This document shows, in pieces, positions 20,790 to 29,356 of a stretch of DNA of 64,000 nt. The stretch is from positions 62,001-126,000 of the forward strand of contig NZ_JAHBGF010000019.1 in NCBI RefSeq assembly GCF_018390695.1, read 5' to 3'. Made by a program: the position numbers and the translations under genes. Below the pieces are notes generated by a model that did not search any database, was not told the origin of the DNA, and saw nothing but the letters and a program-made list of their open reading frames with translations. Source of the DNA: Ancylobacter sonchi. Its GTDB lineage: Bacteria > Pseudomonadota > Alphaproteobacteria > Rhizobiales > Xanthobacteraceae. The stretch's first letter is position 1. Each line of letters opens with the position of its first letter.

Positions 20790-20891
20790 CACTCATTCTG
20801 GCCGTTGCGAAGCCGGCCGATTGCGCGGATAGTCCCGCCCGGCGTCGTCCGGCGCCTTCCCGATCAAGCGCAGTACGGTGGTATCGCGGGC

Positions 20892-22061
20892 ATGGTGGAC
20901 CAGAATGCGGCCATTCTGGTGGTCGACGACGTGGCTGAGAATCGCGACCTGCTGGCCCGTCGCCTGCGCCGGCTCGGCTTGAGCCGCATCGACGAGGCCG
21001 CCAATGGCCACGAGGCGCTGGCGGCCATCGCCAAGACGCCCTACGACCTCGTGCTGCTCGACATCATGATGCCGGAGCTCGACGGTTTCGGCGTTCTGGA
21101 GGCGTTGCGCCGCGACGGCCGGTTGAACGAGCTGCCGGTGATCGTGGTCTCCGCGCTCAACGAGCTCGACCCGGTGGTGCGCTGCATCGAGCTCGGCGCC
21201 GACGACTTCATCTTCAAGCCCTTCAATCCGACGCTGCTGCGGGCCCGCGTGCTCGCCACGCTGGAGAAGAAGGTGCTGCGCGACCGCACCCGCGACGAGC
21301 TCAAGCGCAAGCAGGCCGAGCTGAACGAGGCGCGCACGCTGCAGCTCGCCCTGGTGCCGCCGCCCTTCGACGGCGAGGCGGCGGGGCGGCAGATCGCCGT
21401 CGCGGCGTTGCTGGAGCCGGCGAAGGAAGTCGGCGGCGATCTCGTCGACTACTTCTTCGTCGGCGACGACCAGATCGTGCTGGCGCTTGGCGACGTCTCC
21501 GACAAGGGAGCCGGCGCGGCGCTGATGATGGCGCGCACCCATGCCCTGTTCCGCGCGCTCGCCGCGCGGCCCGACGCGCCGGAGCTGTTCGCCGATCCGG
21601 CGCGGGCGGTCGGGCTGGTCAACGAGGCGCTGGCGCGCGGCAATGCCAGCTGCATGTTCGTCACCTTCGCGCTGGTCAGCGTCGATCTCGCCACCGGCGC
21701 GCTCGCCTATGTGCGGGCCGGCCATGTGCCGCCTTATCTCGCGCGCACCGACGGCTCGGTCGCGCGCCTCGGCGGCGGAGGCGGGCCGGCGCTGGGCATC
21801 GTCGAGGGCTTCGCCTACCGGGCGGACCATGCCGAGCTTACGCCGGGCGACCGCCTGCTCATCGTGACCGACGGCTTCACCGAGGCGCAGGACCGCGCCG
21901 GCACGCTCTATGGCGAAGCGCCGATCGGCGAGCTGCTGGCCGCCGGCGCGGGCGGGCAGGACTGCCTGCGGTCGCTGGTCGAGGCGGTGCGTGCCTTCGA
22001 GGCCGGCGAGCCGCCATCGGACGACATGGCGGCCATCCTTCTGACGTTCGACGTGATCTAG
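20892..22061 (+). CDS. Response regulator with SpoIIE-type PP2C phosphatase output (RsbU-like)
   Basis: 389 aa from ATG 20892. Residues 8-125 form a receiver (LVVDD, phospho-acceptor Asp in LLDIMMP, Lys in FIFKPF). A short helical linker (RDELKRKQAELNEA) leads to a PP2C SpoIIE domain at about 170-389, with metal-binding motifs EVGGDLVDYF, ALGDVSDKGAGAALMMA, VTDGFTEAQ and PSDDMAAILL. Such proteins dephosphorylate a STAS anti-anti-sigma factor when phosphorylated. The STAS protein at 27190 and the RsbW-like ATPase at 26735 are plausible partners. It is the first gene of a three-gene signalling operon. Confidence 0.9.
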   Translation: MVDQNAAILVVDDVAENRDLLARRLRRLGLSRIDEAANGHEALAAIAKTPYDLVLLDIMMPELDGFGVLEALRRDGRLNELPVIVVSALNELDPVVRCIELGADDFIFKPFNPTLLRARVLATLEKKVLRDRTRDELKRKQAELNEARTLQLALVPPPFDGEAAGRQIAVAALLEPAKEVGGDLVDYFFVGDDQIVLALGDVSDKGAGAALMMARTHALFRALAARPDAPELFADPARAVGLVNEALARGNASCMFVTFALVSVDLATGALAYVRAGHVPPYLARTDGSVARLGGGGGPALGIVEGFAYRADHAELTPGDRLLIVTDGFTEAQDRAGTLYGEAPIGELLAAGAGGQDCLRSLVEAVRAFEAGEPPSDDMAAILLTFDVI

Positions 22062-22114
22062 CCGGAATCGCCATTCGCCTCGGGGCGGCTGGCGCAATGT
22101 GTGGGGGAATGCAG

Positions 22115-24493
<2,379 letters not shown>

Positions 24494-24498
24494 CGGGC

Positions 24499-24870
24499 AT
24501 GGCGACGATTCTCCTCGTCGAGGACAACGAGTTGAACCGCGACATGCTCTCGCGGCGTCTGATGCGCAACGGCTTCGAAGTGCTGCTGGCGGTGGACGGG
24601 CAGCAGGGCGTCGACCTCGCCACCTCCCGCCGGCCCGATCTCATCCTGATGGATATGAGCCTGCCGGTGCTGGATGGCTGGGAGGCGACGCGGCGGGTGA
24701 AGGCCGACCCGCAGACCGCTGCGATTCCCGTTATTGCCCTGACCGCCCACGCGATGGAACAGGACCGGCAGGCGGCGATGGCGGCCGGCTGCGACGATTT
24801 CGACACCAAGCCGGTCGAACTACCGCGGCTGATGGAGAAGATCCGGGCGCTGCTGGCGTCGGCCGGATGA
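24499..24870 (+). CDS. Single-domain response regulator, DivK-like
   Basis: 123 aa, a lone receiver: acidic pocket LLVEDNELNRD, acceptor Asp in LILMDMSLPV, Thr in IALTAHAM and Lys in DTKPVE. The sequence matches DivK-type receivers, which act by binding kinases or other proteins rather than DNA. It begins 5 bases after the hybrid kinase stop. A second phosphate sink or diffusible messenger of that kinase is the likely role; it need not be the cell-cycle DivK itself. Confidence 0.88.
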   Translation: MATILLVEDNELNRDMLSRRLMRNGFEVLLAVDGQQGVDLATSRRPDLILMDMSLPVLDGWEATRRVKADPQTAAIPVIALTAHAMEQDRQAAMAAGCDDFDTKPVELPRLMEKIRALLASAG

Positions 24871-25017: not shown

Positions 25018-26598
25018 ATGGCGACTCTGGCGCTGCTGCTCAGCGGCCTTGGCCTGTTCTTCATCGGCGTGCGTTCCCTGTCCGCCAATCTGGTGCCGCT
25101 GGTCGGCCGGCGCGGCCGTGCCGCGTTTTCCCGCGCCCTGCGCGGGCCGCTGAGCGTGGCGCTGAGCGGCACCGTCGCCGGCATCATCACCCAGAGCTCG
25201 ACGGCGGTGTCGTGGATCATCGTGTCGTTCGTGCGCGGCGGCGTGCTGCCGGCCGGCCCGGCACTGGGCGCACCGAACTGGGCGAATGTCGGCACCGCGC
25301 TGCTGCCGCTGATCGTCGCCATCGACACCTCGACGGCGGCGGGGGTGGTGATCGGCCTCGGCGGCTTCATCACCTATTTCAAGCTCGCCCGTGGCGACCG
25401 CATGCGCCATGTCGTGGAGGCGGCGCTGGGGGCGGGGCTGCTGCTGTTCGGCATGCACCTGGTCTCGGTCGCGGTAGGGCCGATCCGCGACGAGCTGATG
25501 CACAATCCGTGGTGGGAGGTCGCGCTCGAGCATCCTTTGCTGCTGGCGCTGATCGGCTTCGGTTTCTCGGTGGCGGCGCAATCATCCTCGGTCGCGGCGG
25601 CGATCGCTGTCGCCGCCGTGGGCGGCGGGTTGCTCGACCTCGGCTCGGCGCTGCCGCTGGTCGCCGGCGCCAATGCCGCCGGCATGCTCAACAACGCGCT
25701 GATGGTGCCGGGCGAGACCATGGCCGGGCGGGCGATCTTCGCCATTCAGGTGGTGCAGAAGGGAGCCGGCTCGCTGCTGCTGGCGGCGCTGAGCGTCGCC
25801 GTCGCCGTCTTTCCCGGCGCCTTCGACAGCGTGTTGCCGGCGGATGGCGACACGCGGGCGCAGATCGCGGTGATCTTCCTGCTGGCACAGATCGGCGGCG
25901 CCTTCATCGCCGCGCTGGCGCAGGGCGCGACCTGCCGGCTGCTGGAACGCATGCTGCCGGCCAGCCCGGCCGAGGCACTGGCGCAGCCGGCCTTCCTGCT
26001 GCGGGAATCGCTGTCCGATCCTGCCGCCGCGCTCGACCTGACCGTCCGCGAACTGGCGCGCCTCGCCGACCGGCTGCCGATGATGCTCGACAAGGTGCGC
26101 GAGGAGGCGGATCTGGCGACGCCTCCGCCGGCGACGCTGCGCGTGGCGGGCGTCGCCCTTGCCGGCAGCGTCAAGGCCTATCTCGCTGCCCTGCTGGACG
26201 GCCAGATGAGTCGGCGGCAGGTCGCGGTGGCCCTGCTGCTGGACGATGCGTCGATGAATGTCAGCGCCCTGCACGAGGCGCTGGGCGAGTTCGCCGAGGT
26301 GGCCGGACCGACACAGGCGCTGCCGACCGCCCGCCGGCTCATCGAGGCGCTGCACGCGCTGCTCGGCGCGGTGGCCGAGCATGGCGAAAGCCTCGGCGCC
26401 GATGACCCGGAGCTGGTGCTCAGCCTGCTCGGGCACCGGGACCAGGTGATGGAGGCGCTGCGCCACCGGCTGTCCGAGCAGCATGCGCTCACGCCGACGC
26501 AGCAGGACGCGCTGTTCCGCATGACCATCCTGTTCGAGCGCATCGTCTGGCTGGCGCGCCAGCTGGTGAACAGCCTGACCCAGGCGCACCGGGCCTGA
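25018..26598 (+). CDS. Na/Pi cotransporter family protein with C-terminal PhoU-like domain
   Basis: 526 aa. The N-terminal 320 residues are an inverted-repeat membrane domain with the duplicated family signature: IITQSSTAVSWIIV (about residue 58) and VAAQSSSVAAAIAV (about residue 183). Residues about 340-526 are soluble and helical, matching the PhoU-like (DUF47-type) tail of NptA/YjbB proteins. It should move phosphate across the inner membrane; related proteins can import or export it. The first helix begins right at the start codon, and the ribosome binding site is poor. A Pho box and an EcfG-like promoter lie upstream. Confidence 0.87.
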   Translation: MATLALLLSGLGLFFIGVRSLSANLVPLVGRRGRAAFSRALRGPLSVALSGTVAGIITQSSTAVSWIIVSFVRGGVLPAGPALGAPNWANVGTALLPLIVAIDTSTAAGVVIGLGGFITYFKLARGDRMRHVVEAALGAGLLLFGMHLVSVAVGPIRDELMHNPWWEVALEHPLLLALIGFGFSVAAQSSSVAAAIAVAAVGGGLLDLGSALPLVAGANAAGMLNNALMVPGETMAGRAIFAIQVVQKGAGSLLLAALSVAVAVFPGAFDSVLPADGDTRAQIAVIFLLAQIGGAFIAALAQGATCRLLERMLPASPAEALAQPAFLLRESLSDPAAALDLTVRELARLADRLPMMLDKVREEADLATPPPATLRVAGVALAGSVKAYLAALLDGQMSRRQVAVALLLDDASMNVSALHEALGEFAEVAGPTQALPTARRLIEALHALLGAVAEHGESLGADDPELVLSLLGHRDQVMEALRHRLSEQHALTPTQQDALFRMTILFERIVWLARQLVNSLTQAHRA

Positions 26599-26734: not shown

Positions 26735-27157
26735 CTAGGCGTCGAGGGTGAAGGCGAGCGCCACCACGTTGCGGCCGTTCTCGCGGCGATAGGCGAAATG
26801 CGCCGCCAGCGTGCGGATGAGATGCACGCCGAGGCCGCCGATGCGCCGATCCTCGATCGGGCTGGTCAGATCCGGCGCCGGCGCGGTGAACGGGTCGAAG
26901 GCGTTGCCGTCGTCGGCAAGCTCGATCTCGACCTGCGTTCCGCGATGGCGGATGGACACCGTGATCTGGCCGGCGCGGCGGTCGGGATAGCCGTAGTCGA
27001 CCGCGTTGTTGACGAGCTCGTCGACCGCCATGGTGAGGCGGTGCGCCACCTTCTCCGGCAGGGCGGACGTCTCGCAGAAGAAGTCGAGCGCCCGGACCAG
27101 AGGCTCGAGTTCCGCAAGGTCATTCTCAAGGCGGAGGTCGAGCTGCGCGATGATCAT
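26735..27157 (-). CDS. RsbW-like anti-sigma/serine kinase ATPase domain protein
   Basis: 140 aa HATPase_c protein. N-box ELVNNAVDYGY, G1 box ADDGNAFDPF and G2 region RRIGGLGVHLI are present, as in anti-sigma factors that phosphorylate STAS partners. GGCGGAAAG precedes ATG 27157. The STAS gene lies just upstream (stop 27190) on the same strand, so the two form the classic switch pair. The SpoIIE-type phosphatase at 20892 would be the third component. Which sigma factor or effector is controlled is not visible. Confidence 0.88.
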   Translation of the reverse strand: MIIAQLDLRLENDLAELEPLVRALDFFCETSALPEKVAHRLTMAVDELVNNAVDYGYPDRRAGQITVSIRHRGTQVEIELADDGNAFDPFTAPAPDLTSPIEDRRIGGLGVHLIRTLAAHFAYRRENGRNVVALAFTLDA

Positions 27158-27189: not shown

Positions 27190-27522
27190 TCAGCCCAGCG
27201 TCGCCAGCGCGGCGTCGCGGTTCGCATGGATCGGGATCAGGGTCGAGAAGCCGCTGACATCGAACACCTCATGCACCGGCGGGATCAGCCCGCATATGGC
27301 GAGGGTGACGCCGGAACCCTTCGCCAGCTTGGCGGCCTTCAGCACCACGCGCAGCCCCGCCGAGGAGATATAGGTGAGCTCGGCGAAATCGAGCAGCAGC
27401 ACGCTGCTGCCATCCGGAATCACCGCCATGAACTCGTCGAGCTTCGGCGAGGTCGAGCTGTCGAGCCGCCCCCTCACCGCGGTGATCACGACGTCCTTTT
27501 CGACAAAGCGGTCGATATGCAT
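27190..27522 (-). CDS. STAS-domain anti-anti-sigma factor (RsbV-like)
   Basis: 110 aa from ATG 27522. Typical STAS order: VVITAVRGRLDSSTSPKLDEF, then VLLLDFAELTYISSAGLRVVL with the phosphorylatable Ser in YISSAGLR, and a C-terminal helix after FDVSGF. In partner switching the unphosphorylated form binds the ATPase encoded 32 bases downstream. The ribosome binding site is weak and the frame is open further upstream to 27573, so the start is moderately sure. Confidence 0.87.
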   Translation of the reverse strand: MHIDRFVEKDVVITAVRGRLDSSTSPKLDEFMAVIPDGSSVLLLDFAELTYISSAGLRVVLKAAKLAKGSGVTLAICGLIPPVHEVFDVSGFSTLIPIHANRDAALATLG

Positions 27523-27640: not shown

Positions 27641-29356
27641 TCAATGCTCGAAGCGCAAGGTCAGCATCTGGCGGTCGCCGACCTTGCCGATCACCAGCTT
27701 GTCGGCGCGCTTGCTCAGCATGTAGCCGACGAAACGCGCCACCGCCGCGCTGTCGCCGAGCAGGTCCTCGGGCGAGGGGCGCAGGGTGGGTATTTCGATC
27801 GCCTCACCCTGATAGGCGAGCACGACGTCGAAATTCATCTCGTCGAACTTCGCCCGCATCTCCAGCGTGCCGGGGGCGACGCCGGTGTCGAGCAGCATCT
27901 CCACCGCCTCCGCGACCACCGGAATGGCAGCGGCGACCACGTCGCGCCGCGCGCCCCACACGTCGCCCTGCCGCTCCAGGAACTCGGTGGCGACGGTGAA
28001 CGGGTTGTCCTCGGTGGTCACCGTCACCGCCGCCTCCTGGCGGATGCCGATGCGGAAGAACAGGTTGAGGGCGACGGCCACCGCCGTCGACACCGACAGC
28101 GGCGATTCCAGGATCGGCTGCGCCCAGGTCGGCGCGGCATGGACCAGCTCGGGCAGGATCGCCACCGCGAGGCCGGCCATCACCGCGAGGCCGACGGTGA
28201 AGATGCGCCGGTCGCTGAGCCGGCGGGACAGGATGAGCTCCATGCCGGCGACGATCAGGAACGCCGCACTGTAGACCAGGATGGCGCCGACGACCGGATC
28301 GGGGATCACCGTCAGCGCGCCGATGAGCTTCGGCGAGAAGGCCGCGAGCAGGATCAACACGCCCGAGACGACGCCGATGCGCCAAGCGGTGGCGCCGGTG
28401 GCGAAGGCGACGCCGATGGCCGCCGAGGAAGAGGCGCTGGCGAAGCCGCCGGTGACGGCGGCGCCGGCGTCGCTCAGCGTGTTGGCGCGGATGGCGCGCG
28501 CGGCCTGCCCCATGTCGGCGCGGCGCCAGTCGGAATCGTCCATGCGCTGCATGGAGACCACCGTGCCGAGCATGTCGACGGCGGAGATGATGCCGGTCAG
28601 CACCGCGGCGGGCACCATGGCCCAGGAAAAGGCGAGGCCGGGCCAGCCGAGCTGCGGCAGGTCGACGAAGGCGAGCGCGCCGAGACCGGGTTCCGCCGGC
28701 GCCCGGGCGACCCCGACATAGGCGGCGAGCGCCCAGCCGACGCCGGCGCCGATGGCCACCGCGAACAGCCGCAGCGCGCCGCGCGAGAAGATCGCCAGCA
28801 CGATGATGATCAGGAGAGCGGTGAAGCTCACCAGCGGGTAGCGCAGGTCGAGCAGCGTCGTCGCCTCATGGGCGCTGAGGCCAAACATGCGGCGCAGCGC
28901 CGGCGCCGCGAGCGCGACGCCGAGCATGGTCACCGCCACGCCGCAGATCTCCGGCGGGAACATCGCGCGCATGGCGTTCTGGAACCGGGTCAGCGAGAAC
29001 TGCGAGACCGCCGCGATCAGGCTCATCGCCGCATAGAGCGCGGTGCCGCCGGCCGAGAGCGCCTGCACGGCCAGCGGCAGGTGCGCGGTGTTCGGGATCT
29101 GCACCAGCAGCAGGCCGGCGCCGGATTTCGAGCGCGGCAGGCATTCGAGGATGGTCGCCAACCCCATGAAGATGATGCAGCTGGTGATCAGGATCTGCGT
29201 GTCGGTGAACGACAGGCCGGCCTCGGTGGCGGCGACCAGTGGATAGACGACGAAGAGCAGGGCGAGCGTCGCATGCTGCACGCCGAGGACCAGCAGCGTA
29301 CCGAGCGGCATCTTGTCGTCGGCGGCGTAGACGATGTTGGACGGTTTGCGCGGCAT
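27641..29356 (-). CDS. NCS2-family nucleobase permease with a C-terminal ATPase-like cytosolic domain
   Basis: 571 aa. Residues about 15-440 carry 12 or more hydrophobic helices in the uracil/xanthine permease pattern (PLGTLLVLGVQHATLALLFV, QIPNTAHLPL, and ASASSSAAIGVAFATGATAWRIG in the substrate region). About 450-571 is soluble: helix VVAEAVEMLLDTG, strand LEMRAKFDEMNFDVVLAYQGE, and DSAAVARFVGYMLSKRADKL. This looks like a reduced HATPase_c fold without the N and G boxes. The start ATG 29356 follows the family; the frame stays open to 29449. Lying next to RsbW/RsbV-like genes on the same strand suggests a regulatory tie, which is inference. Confidence 0.8.
   Translation of the reverse strand: MPRKPSNIVYAADDKMPLGTLLVLGVQHATLALLFVVYPLVAATEAGLSFTDTQILITSCIIFMGLATILECLPRSKSGAGLLLVQIPNTAHLPLAVQALSAGGTALYAAMSLIAAVSQFSLTRFQNAMRAMFPPEICGVAVTMLGVALAAPALRRMFGLSAHEATTLLDLRYPLVSFTALLIIIVLAIFSRGALRLFAVAIGAGVGWALAAYVGVARAPAEPGLGALAFVDLPQLGWPGLAFSWAMVPAAVLTGIISAVDMLGTVVSMQRMDDSDWRRADMGQAARAIRANTLSDAGAAVTGGFASASSSAAIGVAFATGATAWRIGVVSGVLILLAAFSPKLIGALTVIPDPVVGAILVYSAAFLIVAGMELILSRRLSDRRIFTVGLAVMAGLAVAILPELVHAAPTWAQPILESPLSVSTAVAVALNLFFRIGIRQEAAVTVTTEDNPFTVATEFLERQGDVWGARRDVVAAAIPVVAEAVEMLLDTGVAPGTLEMRAKFDEMNFDVVLAYQGEAIEIPTLRPSPEDLLGDSAAVARFVGYMLSKRADKLVIGKVGDRQMLTLRFEH

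Follow-up and report, generated by a model that had tools for sequence, protein, structure and literature searches.

A permease of the NCS2 fold encoded in the 64,000-nucleotide stretch of Ancylobacter sonchi DNA analysed here (the window) ends in a conserved cytoplasmic domain related to the RsbW/SpoIIAB anti-sigma serine kinases, in which the ATP site has been lost. Genes for a single-domain STAS protein and for an intact RsbW-like kinase lie downstream of it on the same strand. We propose, with a probability of about 0.58, that the STAS protein of this partner-switching module docks on the pseudo-RsbW tail of the permease and acts on transport directly. Partner switching is mostly known as a means of sigma-factor control. 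Some Gram-negative modules, RbaVWY among them, have no known target according to the portion of PMC3999984 that deals with them; here the genome itself names a likely target or sensor, a transporter that carries the matching binding fold. If the proposal is true, partner switching gates (or reads) membrane transport without transcription.

The permease gene (27641..29356, minus strand) opens with an ATG at 29356, ends with a stop codon at 27643-27641 and encodes 571 amino acids. Its product is a permease of the NCS2 (7+7 TM) fold. Residues 21-403 (28148..29296, minus strand) form the membrane domain and match Pfam Xan_ur_permease (PF00860) with an E value of 5.5e-35 and 121.2 bits against a cut-off of 27, and the protein also scores 54.5 bits against NCBIfam NF037981 (NCS2_1, purine/pyrimidine permease; cut-off 40 bits) and matches the uracil permease 8omz in the PDB (E 2.7e-9). 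It falls far under the cut-offs of both of its best-matching NCBIfam models, TIGR03173 and TIGR00801 (ncs2), reaching 128.1 bits for the latter, where 291.8 are required. Pfam found no STAS domain within the permease chain; the STAS domain is encoded by the separate gene.

The C-terminal domain comprises residues 436-571 (27644..28051, minus strand). An AlphaFold model of this region, computed from an alignment of 70 tails, had a mean pLDDT of 93.6 and a pTM of 0.88, and its elements follow the order E-H-H-E-E-(h)-H-E-E, which is that of RsbW (GHKL fold). The best 20 PDB matches returned by Foldseek were all SpoIIAB, RsbW, UsfX/anti-sigF or LvrC chains, and a second structure aligner gave Z scores of 13.3 with RsbW 6m37_C (2.6 A over 108 residues), 13.2 with UsfX 8ih8_C and 12.9 with SpoIIAB 1l0o_A. 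The comparison with RsbW and SpoIIAB therefore bears out the preliminary description of this stretch, which had taken the end of the permease for a degenerate HATPase domain. At the sequence level, a profile built from 47 separate RsbW-like ATPases, with no permease included, retrieved the permease tails in collinear register (best E 3.9e-6 among 7902 ORFs); the reverse search with a tail profile retrieved some separate ATPases at E values of about 1e-4, and hhalign aligned the 70 tails with nine neighbouring ATPases over 126 columns at a probability of 97 and an E value of 8.6e-11. A Pfam search of the window's own tail gave no significant match, HATPase_c_2 included. This family matched 15 of the 70 tails at E<=1, and the best of these matches (5.6e-4) is below the cut-off, at about 20 bits, as inferred from another row of equal E value, against a curated 27.4. 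Because PDB sequence searches with the tail profiles returned nothing relevant, the fold assignment rests on profile-profile and structure comparison. The resemblance between the tail and RsbW-type proteins exceeds chance, and we conclude that the tail descends from a kinase of the RsbW/SpoIIAB type, as a pseudo-RsbW with its ATP site lost.

The loss of this site was evaluated from motif positions read in the hhalign register between tails and ATPases, with residues counted over the 70 tails. The ExxxN pattern of the N box is absent from the tails: the position of its Glu is held by Glu in 48 of 70 and by Gln in 21, and the Mg-binding Asn aligns to a variable position at which A, L, M and T are commonest. 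The Asp of the G1 box aligns to Tyr515 of the window permease, a Tyr in 61 of the 70 tails, and GGLG (G2) aligns to ARFV in the window protein, so that the absence of the N and G boxes, also part of the preliminary description, is upheld. Judged from its sequence, a tail without N-box Asn, G1 Asp or GGLG is unlikely to bind ATP in the usual manner or to carry out phosphorylation. Other positions are strictly kept: G464, W467, A469, F504, E506 and G517 are invariant in 70 of 70 tails, D505 and D510 are each found in 69, and H571 in 68. Since the ATP site is gone while residues specific to the tail are invariant, the domain is a conserved pseudo-ATPase and not a product of decay.

The window encodes what appears to be a dedicated set of partner-switching proteins. 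The STAS protein (27190..27522, minus strand; 110 residues; ORF open from 27573, with the ATG at 27522 as likely start) resembles SpoIIAA/RsbV and carries the phospho-serine motif ISSAG, which is of the SSxG type that marks the region of the RsbV phosphorylation site in the section of PMC3999984 on that motif. The second serine of this motif is kept in 18 of 18 linked STAS proteins, and a model of the Ancylobacter tetraedralis orthologue, folded from an alignment from which divergent STAS rows were left out, superimposes on SpoIIAA 1th8_B with a Z score of 19.9. The adjoining gene (26735..27157, minus strand) encodes a predicted RsbW-like serine kinase of 140 residues with an apparently intact N box (DELVNN), G1 (DDG) and G2 (GGLG). 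With the kinase boxes intact and the STAS serine kept, the module can presumably cycle. On the plus strand, Pfam identified an RsbY-like protein composed of a receiver and a SpoIIE (PP2C) phosphatase domain (20793..22061; ORF open from 20370), a hybrid histidine kinase with PAS, HisKA, HATPase_c and two receiver domains (22097..24493), and a single receiver-domain protein (24499..24870) that may have a role in the module. Judged at the sequence level, the STAS protein with its phosphorylatable serine, the HATPase kinase with intact boxes and the receiver-PP2C phosphatase together constitute a set of the RsbVWY type. The STAS protein is probably activated by the receiver-SpoIIE phosphatase, for which the hybrid histidine kinase may serve as an input. 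Of the 17 genus loci with 6-kb flanks, 16 show a SpoIIE match some 5.4 kb past the permease. Pfam also recognised a Na/Pi-cotransporter homologue in the window (25018-26598, plus strand); among the 17 genus loci with wide flanks (L040-L056), 16 have such a gene adjoining the RsbW-like kinase, and another occurs between a tail permease and a kinase in a Falsiroseomonas genome (L291:5399-6970). The cotransporter homologue may belong to the module.

In the mechanism that we propose, the separate RsbW-like kinase would phosphorylate the STAS protein at the ISSAG serine, and the SpoIIE-type phosphatase, driven by its sensor or receiver part, would strip the phosphate again. The tail of the permease would offer unphosphorylated STAS protein an RsbW-type face on which no phosphorylation is possible, and docking there would alter the activity of the permease, the presumed direction being control of transport and not sensing. 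Because the tail has the fold of a kinase without its chemistry, the simplest reading of it is a receptor for unphosphorylated STAS protein. An AlphaFold prediction of the tail and the STAS protein as a single chain had a pTM of 0.80 with 40 of 296 residues in a disordered linker, this being one model without PAE or a negative control. By our own estimate a pTM of about 0.5 would be expected if the mutual placement of the domains were undefined, so the model seems to place the two domains against each other, which is suggestive only.

To determine the distribution of the tail, GTDB genome contigs were scanned with 20 tails, which yielded 84 relatives; 79 distinct loci were retained from these. 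The tail is in frame with membrane-domain sequence in 78 of the 79 loci (the remaining locus, L079, is cut by the contig end), and at L105 the front part of the permease lies in another frame. Hosts among these loci belong to the Proteobacteria (Ancylobacter, Xanthobacter, Azorhizobium, Azospirillum, Rhizobium relatives, Roseomonas, Bordetella, Variovorax and deltaproteobacteria), Firmicutes, Acidobacteria, Armatimonadetes and methanogens, and include Sporomusa, Pelotomaculum and Methanothrix. Within the class to which the window belongs, a tail match (E<=0.001) was obtained in 17 of 385 sampled genomes, a count that includes the window genome and two weak matches. In a membrane-domain tree of 110 rows, from which near-copies and 15 distant tailless genes were excluded, all 88 tailed rows fall on one side of a single branch with a support of 99, and the others are 20 tailless rows and two with a divergent tail; this is a quick tree with some long branches. 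The tail permeases are a conserved family and form a separate clade. Adjacent pairs of them occur in convergent orientation in Aquibaculum (L076:4489-8244) and in tandem in an Aquabacter MAG (L073:2621-6396).

Within the genus, the association with the switch genes is constant for orthologues of the window permease. The STAS and RsbW-like genes (27522-27190 and 27157-26735 in the window, same strand), which the preliminary description had placed beside the permease, were found downstream on the same strand in 25 of 25 orthologues that are 68-100% identical (L001-L020, L035-L039), so that the co-occurrence of the three genes holds throughout this set. Exactly one strong HATPase_c_2 match (E<1e-15) was present in 29 of 30 genus genomes, in each case sharing a contig with the tail permease and no more than about 6 kb from it; the sole genus genome without a tail permease (G003) had neither a strong kinase match nor a STAS match, the STAS search having covered 7 of the 30 genomes. 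In one genome (G020), an additional fragment of the main permease abuts the end of its contig, which hides its neighbours. Four genus genomes carry another tail permease, 34-35% identical, with a kinase about 5 kb off on the same contig, a STAS gene beside the kinase and a SpoIIE gene adjoining the permease (for three of the four, the whole locus was read). At one of these (L288:3012-7728), the gene of a HAMP-SpoIIE phosphatase is preceded by those of two proteins lacking Pfam matches and of a substrate-binding protein (PF04392, tested at this one locus), an arrangement that has the look of a partner-switching sensor in the periplasm. The gene layout is repeated at L289 and L290. Around another seven tail permeases, distributed over six genus genomes (L028-L034), profile searches of the loci of about 10 kb found no STAS, SpoIIE or kinase gene.

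Beyond the genus, STAS and SpoIIE genes accompany tail permeases in Methanothrix/Methanosaeta (three loci), Acidobacteria, Rhizobiales MAGs, Syntrophaceae and other deltaproteobacteria, and a betaproteobacterial MAG has a kinase-STAS-permease arrangement facing a SpoIIE gene. At L292:10136-11923, in a betaproteobacterial MAG, a HAMP-containing Ser/Thr protein kinase is encoded next to a second tail permease and a STAS gene. For a controlled comparison we examined the PF00860 genes of 35 genomes, of which 97 genes from 32 genomes were taken with their flanks; the 109 matches were reduced to this number by removal of five in genus genomes (G000, G005 and G022), five second halves of split matches and two weak matches. 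A partner-switching gene (STAS, SpoIIE or RsbW-like) was located within 3 kb of 17 of 48 tail permeases as against none of 49 permeases without the tail, a contrast for which Fisher's test gives a p value of 1e-6 that is overstated, given the kinship of the rows and the selection of genomes that possess a tail permease. STAS genes were found within this distance at 14 of the 48 tail permeases, SpoIIE at 11 and RsbW-like genes at 6, with at least two kinds at 10. Moving the three permeases with a divergent tail (L204, L229 and L236) to the tailed side gives 17 of 51 against 0 of 46. The state of linkage changes 13 times on the membrane-domain tree, in a count for which ORFs matching the tail profile, including a few true kinases, were excluded from the neighbour-gene search; the 3-kb counts are unchanged when these ORFs are included. 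No partner-switching gene was present within 3 kb of the other 31 of the 48, and profile searches likewise found none in the flanks of the Xanthobacter, Azorhizobium and Aquabacter loci (L057-L075, L090), at two of which the identified neighbours are NUDIX, prephenate dehydratase and cytidylyltransferase genes. The partners of such unlinked permeases may be encoded elsewhere or may have been missed by the profiles.

The substrate of these permeases was considered from the NCS2 signature, which we take to be [QEP]N in TM10 together with a Glu in TM8. In the window protein Ala312-Ala313 and Asp261 stand where these residues are expected. Counted over the rows of the tree, TM10 [QEP]N occurs in 0 of 88 tail permeases and in 17 of 20 rows without the tail; for the TM8 Glu the corresponding counts are also 0 of 88 and 17 of 20. 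The TM8 residue of the tail permeases is Asp in 41, Lys in 20, Arg in 20 and another residue in 7, and the signature Asn of TM10 alone is kept in 28 of the 88. Nucleobase transport was not accepted as the function of these permeases, given that the signature substrate residues are replaced in all 88, and a nucleobase appears doubtful as the substrate. The link between nucleobase transport and partner switching that the preliminary description had suggested is thus sustained for partner switching, through the recurrent linkage, and not for the nucleobase. The large subunit of a molybdopterin hydroxylase of the xanthine dehydrogenase type adjoins one tail permease (L291:1097-3427), which may point to a heterocyclic substrate.

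Gene linkage by itself does not tell which proteins bind, and it also fits a permease that acts as the sensor, in which substrate occupancy would alter the grip of the tail on the STAS protein, which, once freed or captured, would set the action of the kinase on another output. The replacement of the signature residues in every tail permease might be expected of such a protein if transport had been relaxed. Separate inputs exist, however, in the receiver-SpoIIE protein of the window, the HAMP-SpoIIE protein of L288 and a 5TMR-SpoIIE protein at L095, and they point to the phosphatase as the likely entry of the signal; we regard a sensing permease as rather unlikely.

RsbW and SpoIIAB act as dimers, and the tail, having the fold of the kinase, could instead pair with the RsbW-like kinase and hold it at the membrane or block it, the STAS protein not being a direct partner. 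Tail permease and kinase do co-occur across the 30 genus genomes, but STAS and SpoIIE genes with no kinase found in the examined stretch occur at L080, L084, L087, L095, L097 and L103, and the single-chain model of tail and STAS protein also speaks against this pairing, which we consider quite improbable. That the tail is an inherited domain which only stabilises or dimerises the permease, with the neighbouring switch genes serving something else, would suit the 31 of 48 tail permeases that have no switch gene nearby; the complete absence of such genes around the 49 tailless permeases, the all-or-none pattern in the genus and the finding that linkage switches state 13 times over the tree speak for a functional connection, and a purely structural tail is in our judgement very improbable. 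Docking of the STAS protein on the tail remains our preferred reading, and its extension to the whole branch, that NCS2-fold permeases of bacteria and methanogenic archaea have pseudo-RsbW receptor tails and that STAS proteins shuttle from an active kinase to an inactive kinase-like domain carried by a transporter and back, is a proposition to which we would give even odds.

These permeases combine features of several known systems. The tail shares its fold, element order and collinear sequence homology with the anti-sigma serine kinases RsbW, SpoIIAB and UsfX (HATPase_c_2) but differs from them in being fused to a permease and in lacking the N-box Asn, G1 Asp and GGLG. Like UraA and PbuX of the NCS2/NAT (SLC23) family, the permease matches PF00860 above the cut-off; unlike them it has a tail, and the TM8 Glu and TM10 [QEP]N are replaced. 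A passage of PMC6497670 describes SLC23-type transporters as having no carboxy-terminal domain, a remark that a tailed NCS2-fold permease contradicts, and assigns a related 7+7 TM architecture to the SulP/SLC26 transporters. As in SulP/SLC26, the cytoplasmic C-terminal domain comes from the partner-switching toolkit; in SLC26 the transporter bears the STAS side, whereas here the permease bears the kinase-like side and STAS is a separate gene. If our reading is true, tail permeases mirror the STAS-tailed SLC26 transporters and offer a testable parallel to SLC26 STAS domains. The window's set of STAS, HATPase and receiver-PP2C proteins resembles RsbVWY of B. cereus and RbaV/RbaW/RbaY of Rhodobacter capsulatus, the latter presented in part of PMC3999984 as such a set in an alphaproteobacterium, but the words 'permease' and 'transporter' do not occur in the main text of that paper. 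In MlaB-MlaF, as outlined in a portion of PMC7367683, a stand-alone STAS protein is bound to the ATPase subunit of a transporter, which would parallel the STAS action on a transporter proposed here; unlike the tail permease, that system is described there as an ABC transporter and the target as a true ABC ATPase. We found no description of such a tailed NCS2 permease in the literature, most subscription journals and all preprints lying outside the search, and an earlier description is possible.

A second NCS2 subtype with a different, more divergent HATPase-like tail was recognised by eye at L229:3163-4899, L236:3428-5251 and L204:3420-5297. These tails look closer to RsbW, with LACEE and LAAEE in the N-box helix; their profile scores are weak, with none for L204.
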